From assembly GCF_022008365.1 (NCBI RefSeq), contig NZ_JAIRBA010000010.1:1-64000 (forward strand): a stretch of DNA of 64,000 nt, read 5' to 3'. Positions 32,776 through 59,938 of this stretch are shown here, piece after piece; positions within the stretch are counted from its first letter, which is position 1, and each line of letters starts with the position of its first letter. Source of the DNA: Aequorivita vitellina. GTDB taxonomy: Bacteria > Bacteroidota > Bacteroidia > Flavobacteriales > Flavobacteriaceae. Made by a program: the position numbers and the translations under genes. Below the pieces are notes generated by a model. The model worked only from the letters and a program-made list of their open reading frames with translations, searched no databases and was not told the origin of the DNA.

Positions 32776-33480
32776 TCACACATTCACGTTAAACAAATAA
32801 CCCACCAATGCTGTCAATCCCATTGCGACAGTACCCCAGAAAGTTATTCTAATTACAGCCCTTTTTACACTAGAGCCTCCTGTTTTGGCAGCTAAGCCTC
32901 CTAAAATAATTAGGAATAAAATGGCAGAACCGTAGAGGTAATATTCCAAGTGTTCAAATGGCAGAAATAATGCTACCAACAACGGGAGCACGCCTCCTGC
33001 CGTAAAGGCAGCTCCAGAGGCAAGGGCGGCTTGTATGGGGTTGGCCTGACTAATTTCATTAATACCCAGCTCATCCCTAACGTGGGCGGCGAGGGCGTCC
33101 TTTTCCGTGAGTTCTTTGGCAACGGTCAGGGCGGTTTGCTTCTTTAACCCTCTTTTTTCATAAATTTCTGCGAGGCGTTGCAATTCAATTTCGGGCATTT
33201 CCTCCAATTCTTTTCTTTCCCTCTCAATATCCGCTGTTTCAATATCCGTTTGTGAACTCACAGAAACATATTCTCCCGCGGCCATAGATAAAGCACCGGC
33301 CACTAATCCAGCTACCGTCGCCAAGATAACAGGCTCTCTAAAATCACTTGCGGCAGCAACACCTATTGCGATACTTGCCGTTGATAAAATCCCGTCATTT
33401 GCTCCCAGTACGGCTGCCCTTAACCAATTGCTACGGTGTATGTAATGACTGTCTAAATAATCATCTGCTAATTCTGACAT
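32776..33480 (-). CDS. VIT1/CCC1-family iron/manganese transporter
   Basis: 234 residues. N-terminal SNWLRAAVLGANDGILSTASIAIGVAAA and AGALSMAAGEYVSVSSQTD are family signatures. A hydrophilic metal-binding-type loop with many Glu (IERERKELEEMPEIELQRL) and three C-terminal helices follow. Homologues move Fe2+ or Mn2+ out of the cytosol. It lies downstream of a tiny membrane protein gene that has a metal-stress operator, and upstream of the ferric-reductase-like gene, so these may share regulation. Confidence 0.92.
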   Translation of the reverse strand: MSELADDYLDSHYIHRSNWLRAAVLGANDGILSTASIAIGVAAASDFREPVILATVAGLVAGALSMAAGEYVSVSSQTDIETADIERERKELEEMPEIELQRLAEIYEKRGLKKQTALTVAKELTEKDALAAHVRDELGINEISQANPIQAALASGAAFTAGGVLPLLVALFLPFEHLEYYLYGSAILFLIILGGLAAKTGGSSVKRAVIRITFWGTVAMGLTALVGYLFNVNV

Positions 33481-33607: not shown

Positions 33608-33781
33608 CTAGAGAACTATAAAGTACTTTAGGAAAATTAAGAACAGTTGAAAGCAGATTAAAATGATAATGGCGATTAAAATAATAAACCAAACTATTTT
33701 ATCTTTCTTGGTAATACTGCACTTTACAGCCTCTACCTTGTTGTTCCCTTTGGCACGTTTTATCCGCCTACTTTCTGACAT
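33608..33781 (-). CDS. Tiny membrane protein (57 residues) of the TKKDK family, copy 1
   Basis: ATG at 33781 to TAG at 33608-33610. Layout: a basic N-terminus (MSESRRIKRAKGNNKVEA), the motif SITKKDKIVWF, one long hydrophobic helix (IILIAIIILICFQLFLIFL), and the end KYFIVL. It is clearly related to the product of 50656-50838: SITKKDKI, LICF, LFL and FLKYFI all match, and the DNA also aligns. Fewer than 60 codons make it easy to miss. A response-regulator-type operator lies 154 bp upstream and the VIT transporter gene 127 bp downstream. No known family recognised; a small regulator or accessory subunit of metal transporters is an inference. Confidence 0.75.
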   Translation of the reverse strand: MSESRRIKRAKGNNKVEAVKCSITKKDKIVWFIILIAIIILICFQLFLIFLKYFIVL

Positions 33782-34707: not shown

Positions 34708-35544
34708 TTATCCATCGTCTTTTACCATTTCAGTCCTTCTATCCGTTACAGAGCGGTCTTCAGCCACCCCTGATTTCCAATAAGAGTAGGCATAAAGTTC
34801 CTCCCGCTCCCAGCCCTGCTCTTTGCGTAAATAGTTCCGGATTTCCTTTATGGTCGAAAATTCGGCCGCTACATAAGCAAATCTTGAGGCTATAGGCAAT
34901 TCTCGTTGTTTTAAAATAGAAGCGAGATTACTACCTTTCTGGGGATGAGAATTGTGTGTCCAGATTATTTCAATATCTGCCTTGGTATCCAAAAACTGTT
35001 CTTCATTTTCTCCGTACACCTCCAAAATAGCCACTCCCCTTGCCGATTCAGGAAGATCTTCGAGAATGGCGCCTATCACAGGAATGGCAGTAGCATCACC
35101 CACTAAAACATAATGTTCGGCAGGTGAATAAAGTTCTTTTTTTCCTCGCTTCATCATCACCCCTAAAGCATCTCCAGGTTTTGAATTTGCGGCCCAAGCA
35201 GATGCTGGTCCTTCATCGCCGTGAACCACAAAATCAATCCAGATTTCCTTTTTTTCCAAGTCAATTCCGCGGTGGGTATATGTACGTATGATGGGTTTTG
35301 AATACGTACGGGGATATTCCCAAGATCGAGTTTCAGAATTCATTTTTGGCATTGTGAAATTTTATGTCCCAGCCGGAGGAATGATTATTTTATTGTTAAT
35401 CCCTACCGTGGTATCCGCGATTTCAGTCACACTTTCACCTGTTAAGAAAATTCTCAGGTAGTGCGGTGTAATATATTCTTTGCGCACTACAGTAAAGGGA
35501 GCGGCAATAAAGGGATTTGCCGAAGGGATGGTGCTGTCTTTCAT
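34708..35544 (-). pseudogene. Siderophore-interacting protein (SIP/ViuB-like) gene split by an in-frame TAA
   Basis: The two parts lie in the same frame. The first (from ATG at 35544) has the FAD-binding barrel start ANPFIAAPFTVVRKEYITPHYLRIFLTGE and ends IIPPAG-T-TAA at 35362-35364. The second resumes with NFT and then MPKMNSETRSWEYPRTYSKPI, continuing through PASAWAANSKPGD, HYVLVGDATAIP and the conserved YAYSYWKSG end. One base change (for example AAA to TAA) explains the stop. ATG at 35352 could restart the C-terminal NAD(P)H domain (214 residues), but without the FAD part it should not be a working ferric-siderophore reductase. Confidence 0.8.
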
Positions 35545-35651
35545 ATTTTCTTCTATAATATTTATGCGTGAAGTATTTGAAAATGAACCGAGGACTACAA
35601 CTTTAGACCAATCTATTTCATCATTCATTTTGCTTATTCTGCAGTTTTCAA

Positions 35652-35877
35652 ACGTATCATTTGGTTCCTGAAAAAAAGTAGCATTCGCCCAAGTGCCACT
35701 TACACGTACATGAGCAGGTGCAAGTCCTTTTGCCAAATTCATCAACCTTTTATCGGTAAGATTAATGGGCGACAGTTTTCGGTACAGCGCCTCGTCCTTT
35801 TGAGAAATGTCATACGATGAAACGTCTGCCAATTGAGGCAAGCTGTCCATCAGATCATATGGTTCCGTCAGCCCCAC
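35652..35877 (-). pseudogene. Fragment of a GH79/heparanase-like glycoside hydrolase
   Basis: About 75 codons from a GTG at 35877 encode LYRKLSPINLTDKRLMNLAK and GLAPAHVRVSGTWANATFF, which match the conserved N-terminal part of glycoside hydrolase family 79 (pattern: LR.La..L.P..lRvsGTWA). The frame runs straight on into the siderophore-interacting protein gene, with a ~35-codon linker of no clear homology. No signal peptide, catalytic glutamates or remaining domain are present, so this is a truncated relic joined by deletion. Confidence 0.55.
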
Positions 35878-46513: not shown

Positions 46514-46780
46514 ATGAGACGAAGTAAATTTTCACCGCAACAGATTGCAAAGATTTTAAAGGAATTCGACAACGGAAAGAGTGTTGATGAGATCAGCCGT
46601 GAGCACGGGGTCAGCCCTGCCACCTTCTACAAGTGGCGTTCAAGGTATGCCGGAATGAGCTCCAAGGAGCTCAAGCGCCTCAAGGAGCTGGAAGAAGAGA
46701 ACGCCCGGCTCAAACAGATGTATGCCACCTTGGCCCTTGACCACCAGATGGCCAAGGAGATCATCGAAAAAAAGCTCTAA
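46514..46780 (+). CDS. IS3-family transposase OrfA
   Basis: 88 residues: a helix-turn-helix ([40 protein letters not shown]) followed by a leucine-zipper helix ([20 protein letters not shown]). The end runs through GAAAAAAAGC at 46766-46775, where a -1 slip on A_AAA_AAG would join it to OrfB. Confidence 0.92.
46768..46774 (+). promoter_or_regulatory. A_AAA_AAG programmed -1 frameshift site
   Basis: The codons here are GAA AAA AAG CTC TAA in the OrfA frame. The heptamer A_AAA_AAG is the classic IS3-group slippery site, and the -1 frame continues openly into OrfB ([16 protein letters not shown], then [10 protein letters not shown]). The full transposase is therefore probably an OrfAB fusion. 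Confidence 0.8.
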
Positions 46781-46845
46781 AGCCCTGCAGGAAGCGAACC
46801 ATTGCCAAGGAACTTATTCATTACGGCATCTGCAGGGCGTGCCGT

Positions 46846-47643
46846 GTGCTCAACATGAGCAAGAGTGTTTATTATTATAGGCCTTTGCCCAAGGATGACA
46901 GCGAGATAGAACAAGCCTTGCAACAAAAGGCAAAGGAACATTCAGAGGAAGGTTTTTGGAAGGCCTATGACCGTTTGCGCGAAGAGGGGAAACCCTGGAA
47001 CCACAAGCGCATGCACCGCGTCTATGTGGCATTGGGGCTCCCCTTGCGCAGAAAGGTGAAGAAACGCTTGCCCGCAAGGGTAAAGGAGCCTTTAGAGGTT
47101 CCGAATGAACTCAACCATACCTGGAGTATGGATTTTGTAACAGACGTCCTGGAGAACAAAAGACGCTTTAGGGCATTTAATATAATTGATGACTTTAACA
47201 GAGAGGCGCTCCATATTGAGGTAGACTTCTCCCTGACGAGCAACCGCGTGGTCTGGGTGCTCAACCACCTTATCAACAAAAAGGGCAAGCCAAAAGAGAT
47301 ACGGATGGACAACGGCCCTGAATTTATAGCCAAGATCGCCTCGGAATGGAGCATGATGCACGATATCGAGTTCAAGTACATACAGCCGGGGAAGCCCACG
47401 CAAAATGCATTTGTGGAAAGGTTCAATGGGAGTTACAGAAGAGGGGTACTAAACAAATACATCTTTGAAAACATAGACCAGGTAAGGGAACAGACACAGA
47501 TATGGATGCACGATTACAACCATCACCGCCCACACGATGGGCTGGGTAAAATCCCGCCAATAAAATATGCGGAACTTAATTCTCTTGGGGCTAGCCCCAA
47601 GAGAATTAAAAATAATAAGTTTGTAGAAGTATTAGAAGAATGA
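46846..47643 (+). CDS. IS3-family transposase OrfB (DDE integrase core)
   Basis: 265 residues from the internal ATG; the frame is open upstream to the slip site. An HTH_21-like region ([34 protein letters not shown]) is followed by the rve catalytic core. Catalytic Asp 1 is in [11 protein letters not shown], Asp 2 in [11 protein letters not shown], and the Glu in [13 protein letters not shown]. All catalytic residues are intact, so the element could be active. Confidence 0.93.
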
Positions 47644-47653
47644 GCAGTTCTAA

Positions 47654-48001
47654 TTAGGGGAAGCTTACACCAAATTGCATATCTTCATTAAAGTTATCTG
47701 GATATAGAAGGATGCCACTTAAATTAGTGTAATGCCATTCTTTAAAGCCAAAAACAGGAATCACAGCACTTACTACAATCAAAATTTTGTCTAATTCTTC
47801 CAATTCAAACTGTACACCCTCTATATAAACCTCACTTAAAAACTGCATCATCCGTTGTTGAAAAACAAGTTGCCTGCCTTTAGAAAGATTTCTATAATAA
47901 AGAACATTCTCCAACAATAATTTGTGCCAATGATATGGAAAAGGTTGGACTCTCCGACGTTTTGCTTTTCGATAAAAATGAATAACAAACAGGAGAATCA
48001 C
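47654..48001 (-). pseudogene. Truncated MtfA-like zinc-dependent peptidase
   Basis: From GTG at 48001, about 110 native codons encode the N-terminal part of the MtfA/DgsA-anti-repressor family (PFPYHWHKLLLENVLYYRNL; IVVSAVIPVFGFKEWHYTNL). The last residues (GVSFP and stop) are read from the IS3 end. The zinc-binding HExxH part, normally further on in a ~250-residue protein, is missing and was not found left of the IS. It is therefore non-functional as a peptidase. Confidence 0.8.
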
Positions 48002-48038: not shown

Positions 48039-48251
48039 TTAATCCACAGGTTCAGCTTTAAAGCCTACTTTTTGCAATGTTGTCTTTATATCTTCTTCTG
48101 AAGCACCATCACTTTCTATGGTTAAAATTTTATCAGGATTGGCGGTATCCACTTTCCAACTTTCAACACCTTCTTGCTTATTTAAAAAAGGAGTTACTTT
48201 TGAAACACAACCACCACAATTGATATTCGTTTTAAATTTTAAAGTTTTCAT
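48039..48251 (-). CDS. CopZ-like heavy-metal-associated (HMA) chaperone
   Basis: 70 residues, a single HMA ferredoxin-like fold with the metal-binding CGGC (TNINCGGCVSKVTPFL), where CxxC binds Cu(I). The rest (VESWKVDTANPDKILTIESDG, EEDIKTTLQKVGFKAEPVD) follows the usual beta-alpha-beta pattern. It lies 23 bp after the Cu-type ATPase gene, so it is the expected copper chaperone delivering Cu(I) to that pump. Confidence 0.9.
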   Translation of the reverse strand: MKTLKFKTNINCGGCVSKVTPFLNKQEGVESWKVDTANPDKILTIESDGASEEDIKTTLQKVGFKAEPVD

Positions 48252-48274: not shown

Positions 48275-50533
48275 TTAAAGGTTTACTCGTTTAAGTCTTA
48301 AACTATTTGCAACTACAGAGACACTACTGAATGCCATTGCTGCTCCTGCAATCATTGGGTCTAATAAGAACCCATTTACTGGATACAGAACTCCTACCGC
48401 AATTGGGATTCCAATAATATTATAGATGAATGCCCAAAATAGATTCTGACGTATGCCCAATACGGTTCTTTTTGATAGTTCCAACGCTTTTGGAATAGAT
48501 TGCAAATCAGACGTTATCAATGTCATTTTCGCAACGTCCATTGCTATGTCCGAACCTTTACCCATTGCGATACTTACATTGGCTTGTGCCAAAGCGTGGG
48601 AATCATTGATGCCATCACCAACCATAGCTACTATCTTACCATCAGCTTGCAGTTTTTCCACAAAAGCTGCTTTCTCTGAAGGCATCACTTCGCCTTGGTA
48701 ATTTGTTATCCCTAATTGTTTTGCGACAGCAGATGCGGTTTTATTATTATCTCCTGTAAGCATATAGACATCAATGCCTCGTTCTTGAAGCGTTGCTATG
48801 GCCTTTTTTGAAGTTTGCTTAATCTTGTCTGCAATAGCGAGTATCGCCAGCACTTGTTCATCATTTCCATAGAAAATGACTGTTTTCGCTTGCTCTTCGA
48901 GGCTTTCTGCTGTTTGCATTAAGGTAGCGTCAATTTGAATATTTTTCTCAAACATTAGTTTATGATTCCCCACATAGTATTTCGACCCATTTTTTGCTTG
49001 AGCTTTCACACCCATCCCTGTAATACTTTCAAACGAAGCAATATCCACTTTTTCAATATTTTCATTTTTTAAGTGGTTGACTACCGCTTCAGCCAAAGGA
49101 TGTTCTGATTGTGCTTCTATTGCCAAAAGAATTTGTTTGTATTGATTTTGATTTTCAAGTTTATCCTTCCAAAGTATATCAGTTACTAACGGTTTCCCTT
49201 CTGTAATTGTGCCTGTTTTGTCGAGAATGACCGCATTCACTTTATGACCGAGTTCTAAACTCTCGGCATCTTTTATAAGAATATTGTTTTCTGCACCTTT
49301 ACCAATACCCACCATAATGGCAGTAGGTGTTGCCAAACCTAACGCACAAGGACAGGCTATAACCAATACTGCTACAGATGTCAACAAGGCTTGTGAAAAT
49401 GCATTATCCCCTCCAGCCGACATCCAAACAATAAAGGTAATAACAGAAATCCCTAATACAATCGGAACAAATATTCCTGCGATTTTATCAACTAGTTTCT
49501 GTACAGGTGCTTTACTTCCTTGGGCTTCCTGAACCATTTTAATGATTTGGGAAAGCAAGGTTTCTCCACCTACTTTTTCAGCAATAAATTGGAAACTACC
49601 TTTTTGGTTTACCGTACCCGCAAATACTTTTCCACCATCTGATTTTTCTACTGGAACTGGTTCTCCCGTAATCATACTTTCATCTACATAAGAGCTTCCT
49701 TTAGACACCAACCCATCTACAGGAATTTTATCTCCAGGTTTTACCAAAATAGTTTGACCTACTTGCACAGTCGAAATAGGAATCTCCTTTTCTTCCCCAT
49801 TCTCAATAATCTTTAGCGTTTTGGGTTGTAAACCCATCAGCTTTTTAATGGCTGAAGAGGTATTGGATTTTGCCTTTTCTTCCAAGAGTTTCCCCAAGGA
49901 AATAAAGGTTATAATGACAGTAGCCGCCTCATAATAGACGTGAGGCTCGATACCACGACTCAACCAAAATTCAGGAAAAAAGGTGTTGAAAACACTAAAC
50001 AAAAATGCAATTCCGGTACTCAAGGCCACCAAGGTATCCATATTCGCCTTACCGTGTTTGGCTTGCTTGAAAGCATTGATAAAAAAGCTACGCCCGAACC
50101 AAAAAAGAATGGGAAAGGCCAATACCAATGAAATCCACTTACCTGGTTCCCATTGCATAAAAAACATTCCTAATACAAAAATTGGAAGCGTAAGAATGGC
50201 TGACCAAATAGTGCGATTTTTTATGTCTTGATAGTGCTTTTGCTGTAGTTCTTGTTGTACTTCCGAAGGATTCTCCGCATCAATGATAATATCATAGCCC
50301 ACTTCGCGAAGTGCATTTTGAAGTTGATTAGGACTCAACTCTTTGTCGTACTCTACAAGAACAGAGCTATTGGCAAAATTTACGCTTGCATCAAAAACGC
50401 CTTTCGTATGTTTTAATACAGATTCAACGCTTGCTGCACACGATGCGCAGGTCATTCCTGTAACCGGGAATGATTCTTTTATTCCTTGTTTATGGCTCTT
50501 TTCTTTGGTTTCAAATATGTTAATTGTCTCCAT
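48275..50533 (-). CDS. copA: Copper-translocating P1B-1 ATPase (CopA-type)
   Basis: 752 residues. An N-terminal HMA domain ([14 protein letters not shown]) and eight transmembrane helices are present. The transport motif is [12 protein letters not shown] in TM6, with IYN in TM7 and [12 protein letters not shown] in TM8; together these mark a Cu(I)/Ag(I) P1B-1 pump. The A-domain motif is [11 protein letters not shown], phosphorylation [10 protein letters not shown], the nucleotide motif SEHPLA and the hinge [10 protein letters not shown] (His where most have Pro). It lies upstream of CopZ by 23 bp and would export Cu(I) from the cytoplasm. Confidence 0.95.
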
Positions 50534-50655: not shown

Positions 50656-50838
50656 CTAAACAGATATAAAATACTTTAGGAACTGTAAGAACAGTACAAA
50701 GCAGATTAACAGGATAACAACGATTAGAATACCAATCCAAATTATTTTATCTTTTTTGGTAATGCTATTTTTTACAGACGGTACTTTAGTGTTTTTTTTA
50801 TTTCGTCTATCTCGTCTATTTCGTCTATTTTCTAACAT
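50656..50838 (-). CDS. Tiny membrane protein (60 residues) of the TKKDK family, copy 2
   Basis: Very basic N-terminus (MLENRRNRRDRRNKKNTKV), then NSITKKDKIIWIG and a single helix (ILIVVILLICFVLFLQFL) ending KYFISV. It shares the layout and much of the sequence with copy 1 (33608-33781) and more distantly with copy 3 (50940-51107). It lies between the Cu-type and Zn-type P-ATPase genes, 122 bp before the former. No named family recognised. Confidence 0.75.
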   Translation of the reverse strand: MLENRRNRRDRRNKKNTKVPSVKNSITKKDKIIWIGILIVVILLICFVLFLQFLKYFISV

Positions 50839-50939
50839 AGAATATCATTTTTGCTATGAACCAACCAACCAATCAACCACTTCCACTTCATCTGCTGTAA
50901 CCCCAAAAACCACTTGGAACATTATATTCTCGTAGTTCA

Positions 50940-51107
50940 TCAATGCTTATGAATATTCCCTTTTAGCACAAAATAGTATAATAGGAATGCGGTTATTACC
51001 ACAAAGATTATTGCAAGAATCCCATTGAACTTATCTTTTTTTGTGATTTTGTTATTCGATGATTTACTAACCTTTTTATTTCTTTTATTTCTCTGTTTTT
51101 GATACAT
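50940..51107 (-). CDS. Tiny membrane protein (55 residues) of the TKKDK family, copy 3
   Basis: ATG at 51107 to TGA at 50940-50942. Layout: basic N-terminus (MYQKQRNKRNKKVSKSSNN), KITKKDKFNGI, a single helix (LAIIFVVITAFLLYYFVL), then a His-containing tail (KGNIHKH). The ITKKDK motif lies at the same place as in copies 1 and 2. It starts 9 bp after the stop of the Zn/Cd-type ATPase gene, so it is surely in the same operon. The His at the end could bind metal, which is speculation. Confidence 0.72.
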   Translation of the reverse strand: MYQKQRNKRNKKVSKSSNNKITKKDKFNGILAIIFVVITAFLLYYFVLKGNIHKH

Positions 51108-51116
51108 CTTTTTTGA

Positions 51117-53075
51117 TTATTTCCACTTCATCTTCTGCAACCTAACTGCATTCAATATTGCTAACAAAGCCACACCAACATCCGCAAACACAGCCTCCCA
51201 CATTGTCGCCAGGCCTCCTGCTCCCAAAACAAGTACCACAGCTTTTACTCCAAAAGCAAGCGCAATATTTTGATATACAATACGTCTGGTTGAACGACCA
51301 ATTTTAATTGCTTTTGCAATTTTGCTCGGTTGGTCTGTTTGGATGATAACGTCTGCCGTTTCTATCGCTACATCACTTCCCAAGCCGCCCATTGCGATAC
51401 CAACATCGCTTACTGCCAATACTGGGGCATCGTTGATGCCATCGCCAATGAAAGCTACTCTTCCGTCATTTTCGGACATTAGTTTTTCGACTTCCTTCAA
51501 TTTATCTTCTGGAAGCAATCCACCTTTTGCCCAATCTACACCCATTTCTTTGGCAACTTGTTGAGTAATGGAATCCTTATCGCCCGAAAGCATTATGATT
51601 TTTGAAATACCCGATTCCCGAATTTGATTAATGGCTTCGTGGGCATCATCCTTTAACTCGTCTGCAATGATTACATAGCCTGCAAATTTGCCTTCAATGG
51701 AAACCATCACGATAGATTCTACAATGTTGTCGGTTTCAGATGGAACTTCGATATTGTTTGAAATCATCAATGGTTTATTCCCAACCAATACGGTTTTGCC
51801 GTTTACTGTTCCCTTTAAGCCTTTTCCTGCTACTTCACTTACTTCGGAAGCTTGAAAATCTTCGCCATCGGCTTTATAATCCATAATTGCCTTGGCAATG
51901 GGATGGGTAGATTGTTCTTCCATCGCCATTAGGTATTTCATAAATTCAGGTTCTTTCCAGCCAATGGCTTTTATTTCTTTGATTTTAAAAACACCTTTGG
52001 TTACAGTTCCTGTTTTGTCCATAACAACGGTATTAACCTTCGTCATTTCATCCAAATAAGATGCGCCTTTGAACAAAATCCCGTTTTTTGAAGCTGCTCC
52101 CAATCCACCAAAATAGCCCAACGGAATAGAGATAACCAAAGCACACGGACAGGAAATAACCAAGAAAATCAATGCTCTATACAACCAATCGCTAAAAACA
52201 TAATCGTCCACAAAAAAGTAAGGTAGAAATGTCAAGGCAATTGCCAAGAATACCACGATAGGCGTATAGATTTTTGCAAACTTTCTAATGAACAATTCGG
52301 TCTTTGATTTCCGTGCGGTGGCGTTTTGCACCATATCCAAAATTCTTGCAATAGAACTATCCTTAAATTCTTTAGTAGTTTTTATTTCAATTACACCGTC
52401 CAAGTTTATGCTTCCAGCAAATACTTTTTCGCCTTTTGCAATGGTATCAGGTTTGCTTTCGCCCGTTAATGCTGCGGTATTGAACGAGCCTTTTTCGGAC
52501 AATAAAATACCATCTAAAGGAATTTTTTCGCCCACACGTACTTGCACTTTTTCGCCAATAGCAACGGTTTCGGGATTTACAGAAACATAATTGTTGTCCC
52601 GATAAACCAAAGCTTCATTGGGTCTTACATCCAGTAATGCCTTGATGCTTCCTTTGGCTCTTTTAACCGCGGCACTTTGGAATAATTCGCCTACCGCATA
52701 AAACAACATTACTGCCACACCTTCCGGATATTCGCCAATGGCGAATGCACCTATGGTTGCGATGGACATCAATAGAAATTCGGTAAAGAAATCGCCATTT
52801 TTGATGCTGTTCCAACCTTCCTTTATCACAGGAAAACCTACAGGAAGGTATGCGACTGCATACCAGACGATACGTATCCAATCTTTAAAAAATGCTACGT
52901 CAAAATAATCCATCGCAATGCCAATAATCAGCATTACAAAGCTGAAAATTGCTGGTACATAAACTTTAAATTTCCCTATGCTTTCTGCGCTGCTTTGGTT
53001 GTGGGCATCATTGCGCTTGTGAGTATCTGAAGAAGTTTTATTCAAATCTCTTAAATTGACTTTCTTTTTTTTCAT
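51117..53075 (-). CDS. Zn/Cd-type P1B-2 ATPase
   Basis: 652 residues, without an N-terminal CxxC HMA domain (a short Lys/Asn/His-rich start instead). Metal motifs: SCPCALVISIP in TM6, a Lys in TM7 (ALAFGVKAVVLVLG) and Asp in TM8 (FADVGVALLAILNA, DxG form), the set described for Zn2+/Cd2+/Pb2+ P1B-2 pumps. Catalytic motifs: ALTGESKPD, DKTGTVTKG, STHPIA, GDGINDAPVL. It is followed 9 bp on by a tiny membrane protein gene and preceded by a YceI-like gene 32 bp upstream. The likely role is Zn/Cd export. Confidence 0.93.
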   Translation of the reverse strand: MKKKKVNLRDLNKTSSDTHKRNDAHNQSSAESIGKFKVYVPAIFSFVMLIIGIAMDYFDVAFFKDWIRIVWYAVAYLPVGFPVIKEGWNSIKNGDFFTEFLLMSIATIGAFAIGEYPEGVAVMLFYAVGELFQSAAVKRAKGSIKALLDVRPNEALVYRDNNYVSVNPETVAIGEKVQVRVGEKIPLDGILLSEKGSFNTAALTGESKPDTIAKGEKVFAGSINLDGVIEIKTTKEFKDSSIARILDMVQNATARKSKTELFIRKFAKIYTPIVVFLAIALTFLPYFFVDDYVFSDWLYRALIFLVISCPCALVISIPLGYFGGLGAASKNGILFKGASYLDEMTKVNTVVMDKTGTVTKGVFKIKEIKAIGWKEPEFMKYLMAMEEQSTHPIAKAIMDYKADGEDFQASEVSEVAGKGLKGTVNGKTVLVGNKPLMISNNIEVPSETDNIVESIVMVSIEGKFAGYVIIADELKDDAHEAINQIRESGISKIIMLSGDKDSITQQVAKEMGVDWAKGGLLPEDKLKEVEKLMSENDGRVAFIGDGINDAPVLAVSDVGIAMGGLGSDVAIETADVIIQTDQPSKIAKAIKIGRSTRRIVYQNIALAFGVKAVVLVLGAGGLATMWEAVFADVGVALLAILNAVRLQKMKWK

Positions 53076-54111: not shown

Positions 54112-54471
54112 TTACTGGCTCTCAATCCAACTTTTGGCATCTTCCTTTTGGTCTATATTGAAATACTTAATTTCGGCGTTGGTAAAAGGCTTCATAAATT
54201 GGGTTATCCATTCTTGCCATTTTTTATCTCCTACCATTGCTATTTTTTCATAGTCTCTGGCGTGGGCCGTATCCATTTTGAGGTCTTCCCATAAACTAGG
54301 CAAGTCCCAACCCGTAAAATTGTCCATCTCAAAATACCAACGAACCTTCATCCCCTTGTCCAGTATAGCGTGGATAAGTGGATGGATTTTTTCGATGTCT
54401 TCTTTTCTCAATTTGCCCGAAGCTTTTGTTGCAACAATATTTTTTTCCTTTAACTCAATTATCTGTAACAT
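54112..54471 (-). CDS. STAS/SEC14-domain (SpoIIAA-like) protein, paralogue 1
   Basis: 119 residues. The fold signs are a strand-helix order with LREDIEKIHPLIHAILDKGMK-type helix, then VRWYFEMDNFTGWDLPSLWED and YEKIAMVGDKKWQEWITQF, as in SpoIIAA-like proteins of Pfam STAS/SEC14. It shares the WY.EM.NF.GW and FTNAEIKYF motifs with the product of 59103-59456. No ligand can be deduced. It lies 23 bp after a 58-codon gene and near Fur and APC-permease genes. Confidence 0.85.
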   Translation of the reverse strand: MLQIIELKEKNIVATKASGKLRKEDIEKIHPLIHAILDKGMKVRWYFEMDNFTGWDLPSLWEDLKMDTAHARDYEKIAMVGDKKWQEWITQFMKPFTNAEIKYFNIDQKEDAKSWIESQ

Positions 54472-54494
54472 TTTATATAGTTTTTAATTAATTA

Positions 54495-54671
54495 TTATCC
54501 TTCTAAATCGTAAAACCATTCTTCAGCCATTACAATTGCTTTTTTGATGGCCTTTTCTTTTGAAAAGTCTTCCTTTTCGATTAATTCTTTCGCAATTTCA
54601 ATTGCCTTTTTTCTTACCGATGGATTAAGGGTGTCAAGCTCTGCTCTAAATTCTTCAAATGTCCAGTCCAT
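54495..54671 (-). CDS. Small acidic protein (58 residues), unknown
   Basis: ATG at 54671 to TAA at 54495-54497 encodes a helical protein (MDWTFEEFRAELDTLNPSVR start; AIVMAEEWFYDLEG end) with many Glu/Lys. Similar short proteins occur in flavobacteria next to stress or STAS genes, but I know no function. It starts 10 bp after the APC-permease stop and ends 23 bp before the STAS start, so it is part of that operon. Confidence 0.6.
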   Translation of the reverse strand: MDWTFEEFRAELDTLNPSVRKKAIEIAKELIEKEDFSKEKAIKKAIVMAEEWFYDLEG

Positions 54672-54681
54672 AAAAAATATA

Positions 54682-55998
54682 TTAGTGGTTAAACAATTCC
54701 TTTTCCTTTTCGGGGTCTATATCTTTTTTTTCTCTTTTATCCAAAAAATAATCCAGCAAGATACCTACTACAATCGCTCCCACAAACGCGGCATAAACTT
54801 TCCAATCAAATTGTATGACCAAAGAGAGGCTTATGATTATCGCCAAAATTGGCAGTATCGGAACTTTCCCAACAGATAAAGGAACTTTAAAGGGCCTGTC
54901 TTTATCTGGTGCTCTGAAACGCAATACGATAAGGGCAATGTTCACGGCGACAAAGACGAGCAACGCACCCAATGACGACATTCCCGCTACGATTTTAATA
55001 TCGCCCAATAGCATAAAACCCGCAACTGCCGCCATAACCACAATGGTAGTAACCCACGGCACTTTATGTGCATTGGTTTTGGTCATAAATTTCGGAAGTT
55101 CGCCCACGCTTGCCATTCCAAACAGCAGCCTGCTGATAGAGATAATACCGCTAAAGGCCGCATTGGCAGTAGCAAAAAGTGCTGCGACCGCCAATGTCAC
55201 GGGCAACCAACTGTTGAGATTTGATGCCGCAAGTGAAAGTGGCGAATCTACTTTTGCCAGTTCTGACGGGTCGGCAATGTTAAGTACCGTAAAAGCTATG
55301 AGCAGATAGATAACGGTTGTAAAAACCATTGTCAGTAGAAAGGCACGAGGAATGGTCTTGCCAGGGTTTTTTACTTCAGAACCCAATGCAGCCATATGCT
55401 CAAAACCTGTATAGACAAAAAACAAGGTTGCGGTAGCCGCCAAAGTACCGGAAAAGGATTCAACTTTAAAAAATTCAGCCTTTGGCGGGCCAGTTTCTGC
55501 AAGCCCGACCACAATAAGAATGAACAATCCCAAAAGTTGTATGCTAACCATTATAATATTGGCAGTAGATGATTTCTTGATTCCCGTAATGCTTATCAAT
55601 GAAAGAATTATCAATACGCCATAACTTATCAATAGGGAAGGCACACTAAAAAAAGTGTTGAAATAACCTGAAAAGGCCAGCAATACAGCGGCTATCGTGG
55701 CAGAACTGTGAAAGGCAATTGTCCAGCCAGTGAGAAAGGAAGGAATGTCAATTTTCGGAAACGCTTTGCGTACAAAAATGAATTCGGCACCTGCATTGGG
55801 ATAGGTAGAGGATAACTCTGCATAAGACAATGCCGAAACGCTGGCAGCAATTGCAGCGAAAACAAAACTCAACCAAAGGTCGGTACCTGCTTGTCCAGCT
55901 GCTGCGCCTATGACAGTATATATTCCTGCACCCACGATAGTGCCTACTCCATAAAAGGTAAGGCGAATTGTTCCCAATGATTTTTTTAATTCTGCCAT
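54682..55998 (-). CDS. APC-family amino-acid permease
   Basis: 438 residues with about 12 transmembrane helices. It opens with LGTIRLTFYGVGTIVGAGIYTVIGAAAG (the APC GxG unwound region) and has LSYAELSSTYPNAGAEFIF and PRAFLLTMVFTTVIYLLIAFT. It ends in a charged cytoplasmic tail. Substrate unknown; such permeases in metal loci could import an amino acid used in stress defence, which is speculation. It is transcribed with the small acidic and STAS genes downstream. Confidence 0.9.
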   Translation of the reverse strand: MAELKKSLGTIRLTFYGVGTIVGAGIYTVIGAAAGQAGTDLWLSFVFAAIAASVSALSYAELSSTYPNAGAEFIFVRKAFPKIDIPSFLTGWTIAFHSSATIAAVLLAFSGYFNTFFSVPSLLISYGVLIILSLISITGIKKSSTANIIMVSIQLLGLFILIVVGLAETGPPKAEFFKVESFSGTLAATATLFFVYTGFEHMAALGSEVKNPGKTIPRAFLLTMVFTTVIYLLIAFTVLNIADPSELAKVDSPLSLAASNLNSWLPVTLAVAALFATANAAFSGIISISRLLFGMASVGELPKFMTKTNAHKVPWVTTIVVMAAVAGFMLLGDIKIVAGMSSLGALLVFVAVNIALIVLRFRAPDKDRPFKVPLSVGKVPILPILAIIISLSLVIQFDWKVYAAFVGAIVVGILLDYFLDKREKKDIDPEKEKELFNH

Positions 55999-56079
55999 AA
56001 TATTTTTTAAGTTAGAGAAGGTGGAAGAAACCTGAACCTGACCATTGGACCCAAGGGTTCAGAATTCTGAAACTTCCAT

Positions 56080-56517
56080 CTAATATTTTTGCCTGCATTT
56101 TTCACATATTCCCTTTAATATCAGGTTCACATTTCTCACTTCATAATCGTCTGGCAAGCTTTCTTTCGATATCTTATTCGGTAAACAGATTGTTCTTCTG
56201 CAATCGGTACAATGAAAATGCAGATGTAAATCTATACCGTATTTATCTTTGGCGTTTTCATCAGAAATAGCATATTTTGCCACTCCGACCCCATCATTAA
56301 TCTGATGAATCAGCCCTTTATCCTCGAAAATCTTGAGATTTCGATAAAATGTCGTTCTGTTTGCTGTTTTATTGGTTTCGCTCTTTTGAACAAAAGCCTT
56401 TTTCAAATCGGAAAAGGACACGGCACTTTGCTTCCTTTTCAGGAACTTGTATATCTTCAACCTCATTTGAGTAGGTCGAATACCGTGATTTAATAGTATC
56501 TTTTCCGTTTTAGTCAT
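56080..56517 (-). CDS. Fur-family metalloregulator, paralogue 1
   Basis: 145 residues. N-terminal winged helix (LLNHGIRPTQMRLKIYKFLKR; NRTTFYRNLKIFEDKGLIHQI) and C-terminal metal-binding domain with HLHFHCTDCRRTIC (a His/Cys set plus CxxC) and a final CEKC. The residues correspond to Fur/Zur sensory sites. It shares most of its layout with the product of 59501-59923. It lies 81 bp before the APC-permease gene and after the P1B-4 ATPase gene (50 bp), so it may control this cluster. Confidence 0.9.
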   Translation of the reverse strand: MTKTEKILLNHGIRPTQMRLKIYKFLKRKQSAVSFSDLKKAFVQKSETNKTANRTTFYRNLKIFEDKGLIHQINDGVGVAKYAISDENAKDKYGIDLHLHFHCTDCRRTICLPNKISKESLPDDYEVRNVNLILKGICEKCRQKY

Positions 56518-56567
56518 TGCAATATTAATTCAAAAGCAAACCCTTTTTTCAAAACATATATTTGATG

Positions 56568-59096
56568 CTATTTCTTATAAGCCAAAAGCCTTAACGCATT
56601 AAAAACCACAAGTAATGTTGAGCCTTCGTGGATGACCACTGCAATACCGATATTGGCCCAACCCATAATGGTCGATGGGATAAGCAATGCCACAATACCG
56701 AGGCTTACCCAAAGGTTTTGCTTGATAATTGCCTTTGCCTTCCTGCTCAAGCCTATGGCAAAGGGCAGGGTTTCCAATTTATCGGCCATTAGGGCAATGT
56801 CTGCAGTTTCCAAGGCCACATCACTGCCCGCTGCACCCATTGCGATACCTACTGTGCTGTTTGCCATTGCAGGGGCATCGTTCACACCGTCGCCTACCAT
56901 TGCGACTTTGGATTCCTGTTCTTTTAATTTTTTAATGGCATCTACCTTTTCCTCTGGCAACAGGCTTCCCCAGGCATCGGTCAACCCAATTTCTTTAGCA
57001 ACGGCATCGGCAACCTTTTGATTATCCCCGGTTAGCATTATCATCCGCTTGATACCGATTTCCTTTAATTTTTTCAGTGTTTCCTTGGCCGCTTCCCGTG
57101 GGGTGTCCATCAGGGCGATGATACCTATATATTCTTTGTTCCTTCTTATGAGCATCGTAGTATTTCCACCACCTTCAAGTTCTTTTACTTTATTCGATAT
57201 ATCTTCGGATGGTTTTGCTTCATCGAGGTCTTCGTACAAGTCAAGGTTTCCAATATAGATTTTATCCTTGCCCAAAGAAGCTTTGATACCTTTTCCGAGA
57301 ACTGCTTCCAAATCTGACGCATCGATAATATCAGTACCTTTCAGACGCTCTTTCCCATCCCTTACGACGGCTTTGGCCAAAGGGTGGTCGCTCAAGTTTT
57401 CAACGGCAACGGCTATCTTTAACAGTTCATTTTCTTCAATATCCCCCAATGGTACTACTTCGGTAAGTTTGGGCTTGCCTTCGGTAAGCGTGCCTGTTTT
57501 ATCAAAAGCCAAAGCGGTTATGACCCCTAAATCCTCAAGTGGTCGCCCACCTTTGATGAGCACGCCGCCACGTGCTGCCCTTGCCACACCGCTCAATACG
57601 GCACTTGGTGTTGAAATGGCCAGTGCACAGGGACTTGCAGCTACCAATACCGCCATTGCACGATAAAAGCTGGCACTAAACGGTTCGTCAATGACCAGAA
57701 AGGCAAAGAGTAGGATACCAACCAGTATCAGTACGGATGGCACAAAGTATTTTTCGAACTTATCGGTCAGCAGTTGCGTGGGGGACTTCTGGGTCTGTGC
57801 CTCGTTGACCAATTTGACCAGTCGGGACAGGGTAGAGTCTTTGGCTTCTTTGATTACCTTTATTTCCAGCGTGTTATTACCGTTGATAGTTCCGGCAAAT
57901 ACCCGATTTTCATCCTTGATATCATCGTCTGCCGAATAGTCCCTGCCTGTATCTTCCACGGGAAGTTTATCCACGGGTACACTTTCCCCAGTAATAGGGG
58001 CCTGGTTTACACTGCTTTTTCCGTTGACCACGACGCCATCTGCGGATATTTTACTATTGGGCTTGACCACTATAATATCGCCAATACTCAATTGCTCAAT
58101 TCCAACTTCTTCGGTCTTGCCATCTTTTTTAAGCAATGCTGTTTTTGGTGCAAGGTCTGCAAGCGCAGCAATGCTTTTTCTTGCTTTGTTCATTGCGTAA
58201 TGTTCCAAGGCGTGCCCAAGGCTAAATAAAAACAACAACAGTGCACCTTCTGCCCATTCTCCCAGAATGGCGGCACCAATGGCAGCGACCAGCATTAAAA
58301 AATCAATTTCAAAACCACCCTTGGCCACAGTTTGAACCGCTTCCTTGGCCGTAAAGAAACCACCGAAAAAGTACGCGCCAATGTACAAAGTAAGACTGAC
58401 CCAATCCGGGATGGATTCCACATAAGAAAGCCCGAAACCTATCCCGAGAAGTGCCCCACAGATAATGGAAAAAATAAGCTCCGTATTTTTACCGAAAACC
58501 CCACCATGGGCGTGCTCTTCTCCTTCCTCGTGGGTCTCGCCCTCCTTGTGCTCGTGGCCCTCTGTGGAAGTTTGCTCTTTAGTATCTTCCTTCTTTGAAC
58601 GTTCCTGTTTTTTTTTGGATGCTTCGGTGTAATTATTTTCGTTTGAAGAACTCCGCTGAACCTGAAGGTCTTCCTTTTCAATCTGTTTACTTATTTCATC
58701 AAAATTTGTTTGCTTTTTATCAAACTCAAGGCGCACCATTCCAGAGGCCGAAACGGAAGCCTCCAAAACCCCATTGATTGCCAAAAGACTTTTCTCTATG
58801 GAACGTGCCTGTCTTGTATGTCTGATTCCTTTTACCTCAATGAGCAAATGCCCATATTTTTCGGTAATCTCGGCACCTGTCTGTTCTGCGAGAGATTGAA
58901 TGCGGTCTATGGAAATGATATCTGGGTCATAATGAAAACAGAGCTGTGGCGTGGTATCTTCCTTTGTATCGGTAACGTGTACTTTTTCGATACCCTCTTT
59001 GGCCTGTAGTTCTTGAATAAGCCTTTTAACACAAGTGTCTTTTTCGTTTGGAACTTGCGGTAGGATAACCGGGATTTTTAGTTGTAGTTTTTTCAT
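56568..59096 (-). CDS. P1B-4-type heavy-metal ATPase with His-rich N-terminal linker
   Basis: 842 residues. Two N-terminal HMA-like folds lack CxxC. A His/Glu-rich linker (about 165-195, GHEHKEGETHEEGEEHAHGG) comes before eight helices. The TM6 motif is ASPCALAIS (SPC, not CPC) and TM8 has IHEGSTLLVVFNA; SPC plus HEG(G/S)T mark P1B-4 pumps (Co2+, Zn2+, Fe2+ in studied cases). Catalytic motifs: ITGESVPVDK, DKTGTLTEGK, SDHPLA, GDGVNDAPAM. It starts 6 bp after the second STAS gene, so it is in one operon with STAS2, Fur2 and PII. Confidence 0.92.
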   Translation of the reverse strand: MKKLQLKIPVILPQVPNEKDTCVKRLIQELQAKEGIEKVHVTDTKEDTTPQLCFHYDPDIISIDRIQSLAEQTGAEITEKYGHLLIEVKGIRHTRQARSIEKSLLAINGVLEASVSASGMVRLEFDKKQTNFDEISKQIEKEDLQVQRSSSNENNYTEASKKKQERSKKEDTKEQTSTEGHEHKEGETHEEGEEHAHGGVFGKNTELIFSIICGALLGIGFGLSYVESIPDWVSLTLYIGAYFFGGFFTAKEAVQTVAKGGFEIDFLMLVAAIGAAILGEWAEGALLLFLFSLGHALEHYAMNKARKSIAALADLAPKTALLKKDGKTEEVGIEQLSIGDIIVVKPNSKISADGVVVNGKSSVNQAPITGESVPVDKLPVEDTGRDYSADDDIKDENRVFAGTINGNNTLEIKVIKEAKDSTLSRLVKLVNEAQTQKSPTQLLTDKFEKYFVPSVLILVGILLFAFLVIDEPFSASFYRAMAVLVAASPCALAISTPSAVLSGVARAARGGVLIKGGRPLEDLGVITALAFDKTGTLTEGKPKLTEVVPLGDIEENELLKIAVAVENLSDHPLAKAVVRDGKERLKGTDIIDASDLEAVLGKGIKASLGKDKIYIGNLDLYEDLDEAKPSEDISNKVKELEGGGNTTMLIRRNKEYIGIIALMDTPREAAKETLKKLKEIGIKRMIMLTGDNQKVADAVAKEIGLTDAWGSLLPEEKVDAIKKLKEQESKVAMVGDGVNDAPAMANSTVGIAMGAAGSDVALETADIALMADKLETLPFAIGLSRKAKAIIKQNLWVSLGIVALLIPSTIMGWANIGIAVVIHEGSTLLVVFNALRLLAYKK

Positions 59097-59102
59097 TTTT
59101 CA

Positions 59103-59456
59103 CTATTTTTTTTTAATCCATTCTTTGGCATCGTCTTTTTCTTCTGGCTTATAAAATTTTATATGAGCTTCTGAAAAAGGAAGCAATACCTCGGTAAATT
59201 GCTCCTGCCATTTAACGCTACCCACTAAAGCAACACGCTTTAAATGTGTTTCATTCGGAAGATTCAATTCAATGCCCTTCCAATAGGCACTTACCGTCCA
59301 GCCTTCAAAATTTTGCATTTCAATGTACCAGAACACTTCCTGATAGGCATTTATATGTTCTGTTAAGACCGGTATCAAGTTCTCATAATCCTTGGCATCC
59401 AGCTTGTTTTCAGCCACCATATATACCGTAGCTTCTTTTTTATAGATTGTTATCAT
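59103..59456 (-). CDS. STAS/SEC14-domain protein, paralogue 2
   Basis: 117 residues, paralogous to 54112-54471. It shares VFWYIEMQNFEGWTVSAYWKG with WYFEMDNFTGW, and the LVGSVKWQEQFTEVLLPFSEAHIKFY block with VGDKKWQEWITQFMKPFTNAEIKYF. It lies between the second Fur gene (44 bp upstream) and the P1B-4 ATPase gene (6 bp downstream), so it is translated with the pump. The role is unknown. Confidence 0.85.
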   Translation of the reverse strand: MITIYKKEATVYMVAENKLDAKDYENLIPVLTEHINAYQEVFWYIEMQNFEGWTVSAYWKGIELNLPNETHLKRVALVGSVKWQEQFTEVLLPFSEAHIKFYKPEEKDDAKEWIKKK

Positions 59457-59500
59457 TGCTCATTATTTATAAATGATGATTGAATTGAAAAACCAAACGT

Positions 59501-59923
59501 TTAATCCAGATTGTCGCTGCATTTTTCGCAAATACCCTTTACCACCAAGTTAATGTCCTCGGTAATGTAGCCATCAGGTAAGTTGATATGAGGGATTTTA
59601 TGCTCTGTTAAACAGACAGTTTCATTACAATTGTTGCAATGAAAGTGTAAATGAAGGTCGTTGCCAACCTCGCACTCACAATTTTCTTCGCAAAGGGCGT
59701 ATTTTATAACACCTGTCCCATCCTCAATTTGATGTACAATACCTTTTTCCTCAAACGCTTTCATAGTCCTAAATAGGGTGCTTCTTTCACTGACCTTAAA
59801 ATCCTTTTCCAAATCGCCAAGACTGATGGCCACCTCTAATTCTGCCAAACGTTTGTAGGTCATTAGGCGCATTGCCGTAGGTCGTATTCCTTTGCTTTCC
59901 AGAAGTTGGACTATTTTTTCCAT
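59501..59923 (-). CDS. Fur-family metalloregulator, paralogue 2
   Basis: 140 residues from ATG at 59923 (a GTG two codons earlier is possible). The wHTH is LLESKGIRPTAMRLMTYKRLA and RSTLFRTMKAFEEKGIVHQI. The metal domain has LCEENCECEVG, HLHFHCNNCNETVCL and a C-terminal CEKC. The extra cysteines (C.EN.C.C) before the HLHFH block are not in paralogue 1. It lies 9 bp after the PII-like gene start region, so it is in the same operon as the efflux pump genes it probably regulates. Confidence 0.9.
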   Translation of the reverse strand: MEKIVQLLESKGIRPTAMRLMTYKRLAELEVAISLGDLEKDFKVSERSTLFRTMKAFEEKGIVHQIEDGTGVIKYALCEENCECEVGNDLHLHFHCNNCNETVCLTEHKIPHINLPDGYITEDINLVVKGICEKCSDNLD

Positions 59924-59938
59924 TTGCACTAAAATGTT

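Follow-up and report, generated by a model that had tools for sequence, protein, structure and literature searches.

Small single-helix ITKKDK proteins encoded in the metal-resistance islands of Flavobacteriaceae

The stretch of Aequorivita vitellina DNA analysed here, 64,000 nucleotides in length and hereafter called the window, contains three very small genes near metal transporters. They raise two questions: whether their products form a family, and whether that family belongs to metal pumps. The first-pass annotation had described three copies with a common layout, placed them in the operons of a VIT transporter, a copper P1B-1 ATPase and a Zn/Cd P1B-2 ATPase, and suggested that they may be pump-specific subunits. 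The features concerned are the following:

32776..33480, minus strand: VIT-family metal transporter behind P0002 (PF01988, E 9e-67)
33608..33781, minus strand: P0002, A-type family member of 57 aa; its stop precedes the VIT gene by 127 nt
48039..48251, minus strand: CopZ-like HMA protein behind copA (PF00403)
48275..50533, minus strand: CopA-like P1B ATPase with an HMA domain (PF00122, PF00403), presumably P1B-1 from its motifs; it adjoins P0001 here, not constantly
50656..50838, minus strand: P0001, B-type family member of 60 aa, with a basic N-terminus, NSITKKDK, one helix and the tail LKYFISV
50881..50902, minus strand: remnant of a zntA 3' end, 22 nt with 20 identical positions, shortly before P0001
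50940..51107, minus strand: P0003, C-type family member of 55 aa with the tail GNIHKH; its start lies 9 nt past the zntA stop
51117..53075, minus strand: ZntA/CadA-like P1B ATPase (PF00122 and PF00702), which we take from its motifs to be P1B-2 (Zn/Cd); partner of P0003 and P0001 by position

All three small ORFs are open in the window sequence. P0001 shares 63% identity with P0002 and 41% with P0003 (alignment A1), and a profile built from 24 family members retrieved the three from their own genome at E 1e-22 to 1e-24, with the next match at E 0.75. The common layout of the three copies was thus borne out: they are open, homologous and the sole strong profile matches in that genome. Neither the profile search nor inspection of the locus revealed a fourth copy there next to the AraC regulator that lies beyond the window. 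An identical copy of P0001 is present in genome G022 and an 85% copy in G010; the P0002-VIT arrangement recurs in G016, and the VIT-like frame of G013 comprises just 54 aa. The AlphaFold model of P0001, a single-helix model that gives helix limits only, predicts a short basic helix (residues 2-15) and a long one (28-59), with a mean pLDDT of 77 and block means of up to 95.

The P0001/P0003 pair is flanked on both sides by E1-E2 ATPases, one with an HMA domain. The own genome has seven E1-E2 ATPase domains, and the chance that a random gene lies within two genes of one is below 1% (about 3,300 genes, estimated at roughly one gene per kb); two of the three window copies do so, the remaining one being next to VIT. 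This genome also has five further P-type ATPase genes with no family gene directly beside them. The metal-transport neighbours of the first-pass annotation stood as regards VIT, the ATPases on both sides of the pair and the HMA domain on one of them, but P0001 does not belong specifically to a copper pump operon, as argued below.

Several other features of the window were recorded. A transposase pair (46514-47643), which we take to be of the IS3 type, abuts a 115-aa M90 peptidase remnant (PF06167) within 46514-48001; the peptidase gene encodes 230-264 aa in relatives, and the insertion seems to have cut the window copy. Two adjacent frames of 171 and 214 aa at 34708-35877, presumably the halves of one siderophore-interacting protein, probably represent a gene broken here. 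The region 54112-59929 holds a repeated set by P-type ATPases, consisting of a SpoIIAA-like protein (PF11964 for the first) and a regulator that we assume to be of the Fur type. A 58-aa ORF without a Pfam match (54495-54671) recurs beside this SpoIIAA-like/regulator set in many relatives.

Homology was assessed with HMMs from which one subtype at a time had been left out (A and B together), each left-out member being compared with 200 shuffles of itself in which tail, helix and end were permuted separately. All 74 distinct members outscored every one of their own shuffles (A, 3 of 3; B, 17 of 17; C, 17 of 17; D, 24 of 24; other, 13 of 13). The median dN/dS was 0.33 for A (2 usable pairs), 0.26 for B (98), 0.26 for C (90) and 0.25 for D (106), and these estimates show the genes to be under purifying selection. 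The consensus reads approximately MSExRRNRR.K..K....ITKKDKII, followed by the helix; the single hydrophobic helix, with a 19-residue hydropathy mean of 3.2, lies in a conserved coding ORF. A conserved metal ligand is absent: of 71 distinct members, 18 contain Cys and 23 have a His among their last eight residues. By these sequence comparisons, the three proteins are members of a single new family whose products, about 50-60 residues long, are predicted to be single-pass inner-membrane proteins.

Searches of P0001-P0003 against Pfam and NCBIfam (limit E 10, with tool filters that drop most matches above 0.1) yielded no match above cut-off, including none to the curated FixS/CcoS, KdpF and AcrZ profiles. 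The PDB search returned nothing above cut-off (best E 0.47), and at the level of titles and abstract openings we found no paper on a small ITKKDK protein family. The earlier remark that no description of the family was known agrees with its absence from curated families.

We then considered its taxonomic distribution. Within Flavobacteriaceae, 45 out of 397 genomes, the own genome included, carry a match at E 1e-5 or better; with P0001 alone as query, 12 of 99 relatives match at E 1e-3. The order sample gave matches at E 1e-3 in 18 out of 395 genomes, eight of which (own genome included) fall below 1e-12 and belong without exception to Flavobacteriaceae, while the other ten range from 4e-5 to 8e-4. 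In the phylum sample, nine out of 395 genomes match; the four strong matches are again from this family, and the five weak ones come from other families and lie in frames of 179 to 1336 aa. Scanning one genome per species revealed at least 19 loci, among them loci of Aequorivita, Arenibacter, Winogradskyella, Olleya, Maribacter, Mesonia, Bizionia and Salegentibacter, and two in bins assigned to order or phylum level only. P0001 had no match in PLSDB (plasmids) or IMG/VR (viral contigs). Members of the family are found in metal-resistance islands of Flavobacteriaceae, and some are carried by conjugative transposons.

Weak matches of this kind are what an explanation by chance similarity among Lys-rich, hydrophobic ORFs would draw on: the five from the phylum sample sit inside longer or interrupted frames, and f7, a different family in this order, contributes four genomes with one-helix, Lys-rich ORFs that match at E about 1e-4 and lie outside metal loci. 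Against it stand the shuffle comparison, by which we consider it already refuted, the dN/dS of about 0.25 and the common gene position; it is hardly credible, and the possibility that the first-pass annotation had itself allowed for, a merely compositional likeness, is excluded. The f7 ORFs (L070-L073) encode a distinct Lys-rich one-helix protein of 54-65 aa with a TTKDY-like motif in non-metal surroundings. We considered the weak matches of that genus as family members and rejected them as a different protein.

To describe the gene neighbourhoods, 92 loci, the window included, were annotated, and 122 family ORFs were detected at E below 1e-6 in 89 of them. Dropping identical 1-kb neighbourhoods left 110, and removing L092 and L160, second copies of counted contigs (L074 was already out), left 105. 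These are genes rather than loci, since a locus may hold two or three; near-copies remain among them, and they encode 74 distinct proteins. The counts cover detectable members, more divergent ones falling outside. Neighbours are ORFs of at least 55 aa picked by length, whose names come from their likeness to proteins of the window or from Pfam searches with representatives; the names of the P1B classes, Fur, IS3 and the siderophore-interacting protein are our own presumptive assignments.

Of the 105 family genes, 96 have a metal transporter or a component of metal efflux no more than three genes away, which upholds the proposed tie to metal loci; five of the remaining nine have an AraC, ArsR or SPW/VKOR-type neighbour. 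Scored by P1B ATPases within two genes, the measure that the first-pass annotation had put forward, the figure is 60 of 105. Counted by distinct protein, the corresponding figures are 65 of 74 for a transporter (three-gene span) and 36 for a P1B ATPase (two-gene span). If other family genes are skipped, the first gene upstream is zntA in 51 of the 105 cases and encodes a CusB-like adaptor in 26; the first one downstream encodes an AraC regulator in 30, RteC in 26, CopA in 19 and VIT in two. A good part of the family thus lies near P1B pumps, but a general tie to them is not supported: a large class lies between the CusB-like adaptor, directly after it, and the AraC regulator, directly upstream of it. 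Pfam domains among representative neighbours include HlyD_D23 with HMBD and DUF3347, HTH_18, PepSY_TM, DUF305 and RteC (PF09357); ATPases, VIT, HMA, ArsP, Na/Ca exchanger, cation efflux and ZIP; and iron-dependent repressor, MerT, ArsR and Usp. Because the islands are dense in metal genes, these proximity figures overstate the case, and the exact gene positions are stronger evidence than the proximity counts.

Those positions differ between subtypes. C and B are found with the Zn/Cd-type P1B ATPase, A with VIT, and D with the CusB-like adaptor and AraC. On a tree of 73 rows (one 39-residue member left out, the fusion described below trimmed to its first 57 residues), context labels change 16 times, compared with a mean of 35.4 for shuffled labels, and none of 200 shuffles was as low. 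AraC-linked labels account for 4 changes, ZntA-linked for 11 and VIT-linked for 1, while mixed 'other' contexts do not cluster (15 changes versus 15.5 when shuffled). Since 62 columns were kept and the tree has long branches and many open forks, only this clustering of labels is taken from it. For the shuffle and dN/dS analyses, subtypes were assigned from tail patterns; the AraC neighbour also helped to define D, which in those analyses is therefore not independent of context.

The clustering also bears on the idea that the family is a passenger of conjugative transposons or a selfish element, such as a small hydrophobic addiction-module toxin, with no role in metal handling. RteC in the downstream position would suit such a passenger, and a basic tail plus one helix also resembles type I toxins. 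It would explain neither the place directly behind zntA or before AraC nor the purifying selection and the context clades, and we regard it as very unlikely.

The C-type gene starts within 13 nt behind zntA in 18 out of 30 cases, a spacing consistent with one transcript and coupled translation, and outside that distance in the other 12. Conversely, among the 30 closest ZntA homologues, 12 have a family gene directly behind and 18 do not; of these 18, G808 has one separated from zntA by an inserted gene, and no family gene lies within 1.5 kb in the other 17. Three further homologues, of 85, 81 and 77% identity (G1101, G828 and G882), carry a divergent family member behind ZntA. Presence beside the pump is therefore not constant, an obligatory pump subunit is not supported, and the protein appears to be optional for the pump. 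The gene was probably lost or gained more than once behind ZntA. GNIHKH had been considered as a zinc-release site of the C-type, and was dropped since the ZntA-linked members of G1101, G828 and G882 lack this tail. Short pieces of the zntA 3' end also lie near family genes in L082, L187 and L202, as traces of recombination.

That close pump homologues exist without a family gene is also expected if these are general metal-stress proteins, made when the island is induced, whose target is the membrane itself or a shared host factor (such as FtsH-type quality control or cardiolipin) rather than the adjacent pump. The working part would then be the basic tail and KKDK, which all subtypes have in common while the neighbours differ. 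Such proteins would not be expected to track particular neighbours on the tree, as the subtypes do, or to have the consistently different tails of B, C and D, which suggest partner-specific parts. We judge this explanation somewhat unlikely, and turn to the individual partners with the optional accessory subunit as the preferred reading.

In the window, P0001 lies 122 nt before copA, after the Zn/Cd-type pump and P0003. However, many loci have the ZntA-C-B unit but no CopA, many with RteC next, and in front of copA homologues of 93-94% identity a different gene takes the place of P0001. We thus rejected P0001 as a CopA subunit, and its earlier assignment to the copper P1B-1 pump has to be given up. 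The B-type gene of G025 and G308 lies 23 nt behind zntA, followed by the C-type. No mononucleotide shuffle out of 300 matched the zntA-end remnant that precedes P0001; when 21 gene pairs were compared, three of them (window included) reached its score, and the remnant was weaker or absent in the others. We read P0001 as a B gene that was probably once placed directly behind a zntA of its own. Three loci (L029, L091 and L163) have a single gene with a C front and a B back, that is, natural hybrids.

D-type genes present a different picture. What lies closest to them is usually a periplasmic-type adaptor and a regulator rather than a pump, and in 24 of 30 the AraC gene starts between -4 and 13 nt relative to the end of the D-type gene. 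We retrieved 60 AraC homologues in 159 genomes, 15 at 66-100% identity and the other 45 at 56% or less. A family match lies directly upstream of 14 of the 15 close homologues, in one of the 14 (G869) this match is interrupted by a stop. The remaining close homologue is the own genome's broken copy, beside which no family gene was found. None of the 45 more distant homologues has a listed family match beside it in the order and own-family searches, nor did any of the 16 that were checked directly. On the own contig, past the window, the AraC gene of a copper-type operon is broken, with two stops in its match (L240, 2978-3424).

The pairing of the D-type with one AraC clade, the tight spacing and the missing family gene where the regulator is broken would all fit a regulatory tether, a protein that holds the operon regulator or senses for it, such as the AraC downstream of the D-type. 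Types A, B and C, though, have no such AraC as nearest neighbour, which makes a tether quite unlikely for the family.

For an accessory subunit, the orientation in the membrane matters. The N-terminal side is more positive than the C-terminal side in 71 out of 71 distinct members and, as the more positive side is cytoplasmic under the positive-inside rule, the proteins are most likely N-in/C-out. A natural fusion in G1042 (L171:4978-5478; 166 residues) begins with a family-like start (E 6e-9) and continues behind the helix into a Cys-rich domain with a GCCNSC motif. Lone relatives of this domain were found in six other genomes of 149, and in all six a family member is encoded 9-29 kb away on that contig. 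The two readable lone-domain frames (L204 and L208) begin with signals that we take to be lipoprotein-like. The C-terminal domain of the fusion (TRASH match at E 0.0076) and L208 (YHS) weakly match Arc_trans_TRASH and YHS-like metal-binding domains, below the cut-offs; the small proteins themselves have no such domain. Because of this domain and its relatives, the C-side of the family would lie outside the cytoplasm, beside metal handling, and the fusion, a single case, supports the N-in/C-out orientation.

Taking these observations together, we consider it an evenly balanced proposition that the ITKKDK proteins are optional accessory or regulatory subunits of metal-export operons at the inner membrane. 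A basic cytoplasmic tail (RRxRRK) would lead through a juxtamembrane (I/V)(T/S)KKDK into one helix and then into a short periplasmic tail particular to each subtype, the subtypes being placed in operons of particular metal-efflux parts. The helix would most likely pack against the transporter, or against some other membrane component encoded in that operon, and tune the stability, the specificity or the periplasmic-side metal release of this partner. Weighing against such a role are the pump genes that have no family gene beside them, the C-type genes farther than 13 nt from zntA, the D-type loci in which a pump is usually not closest, and the lack of a conserved metal ligand. Homology, purifying selection, gene positions and the link between subtype and context are observed directly, while from them we infer the operon structure, topology, partner contact and tuning role.

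Known small proteins indicate that such a way of working exists. AcrZ, a single-helix membrane protein of 49 aa, modulates the RND pump AcrB (PMC10710835, PMC7267776), to which it binds directly (PMC10710835). It resembles the ITKKDK proteins as a small single-helix membrane protein, and it modulates a transporter; it has a bound partner, AcrB, whereas the contact of the ITKKDK family is putative, no sequence match was found between the two, and the ITKKDK family spans several transporter kinds. The CcoS/FixS proteins, also small in size, share with it an inner-membrane location and a gene beside a P1B ATPase. According to PMC8267372, deletion of CcoS, encoded beside the copper P-type ATPase CcoI, abolishes cbb3 oxidase activity, which is partly rescued by copper. 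CcoS/FixS thus serve oxidase biogenesis, whereas the ITKKDK family is found in resistance loci and had no FixS match in the Pfam search. MgtS, MgtR and MgtU (28-31 aa) are described in PMC10710835 as stabilising or destabilising the P-type ATPases MgtA/MgtB, with MgtS and MgtU protecting P-type ATPases from FtsH, and KdpF is given as 30 aa in PMC3618439. These four are about half as long as the ITKKDK proteins, with no Pfam or NCBIfam match between them. They are also not known to have a basic cytoplasmic tail. The likeness to AcrZ or CcoS would be one of function, the sequences being unrelated, and none of these systems was matched in the searches.

A broader view, which we offer as speculative and rather unlikely, is that of a modular plug-in family, in which the RRxRRK...ITKKDK module would dock to a shared host factor while swappable helices and periplasmic tails would fit exporters, adaptors or regulators. 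The matched systems would be the Zn/Cd P1B, VIT, CusB-AraC and CDF systems, mobile islands would bring along a separate accessory subunit for each of their metal systems, and the hybrid C/B genes and the Cys-rich fusion would be natural module swaps.

The observation made in the window was right yet understated: the family is wider than three members, ordered in subtypes and mobile, and it marks genes that are unnamed in the family libraries searched. To our knowledge, one-helix small proteins that tune transporters have mostly been described one partner at a time. The natural subtypes, losses, hybrids and one fusion offer material for finding the partner. If a single family does span several unrelated metal-export operons, mobile metal-resistance islands would bring their own transporter helpers with them.
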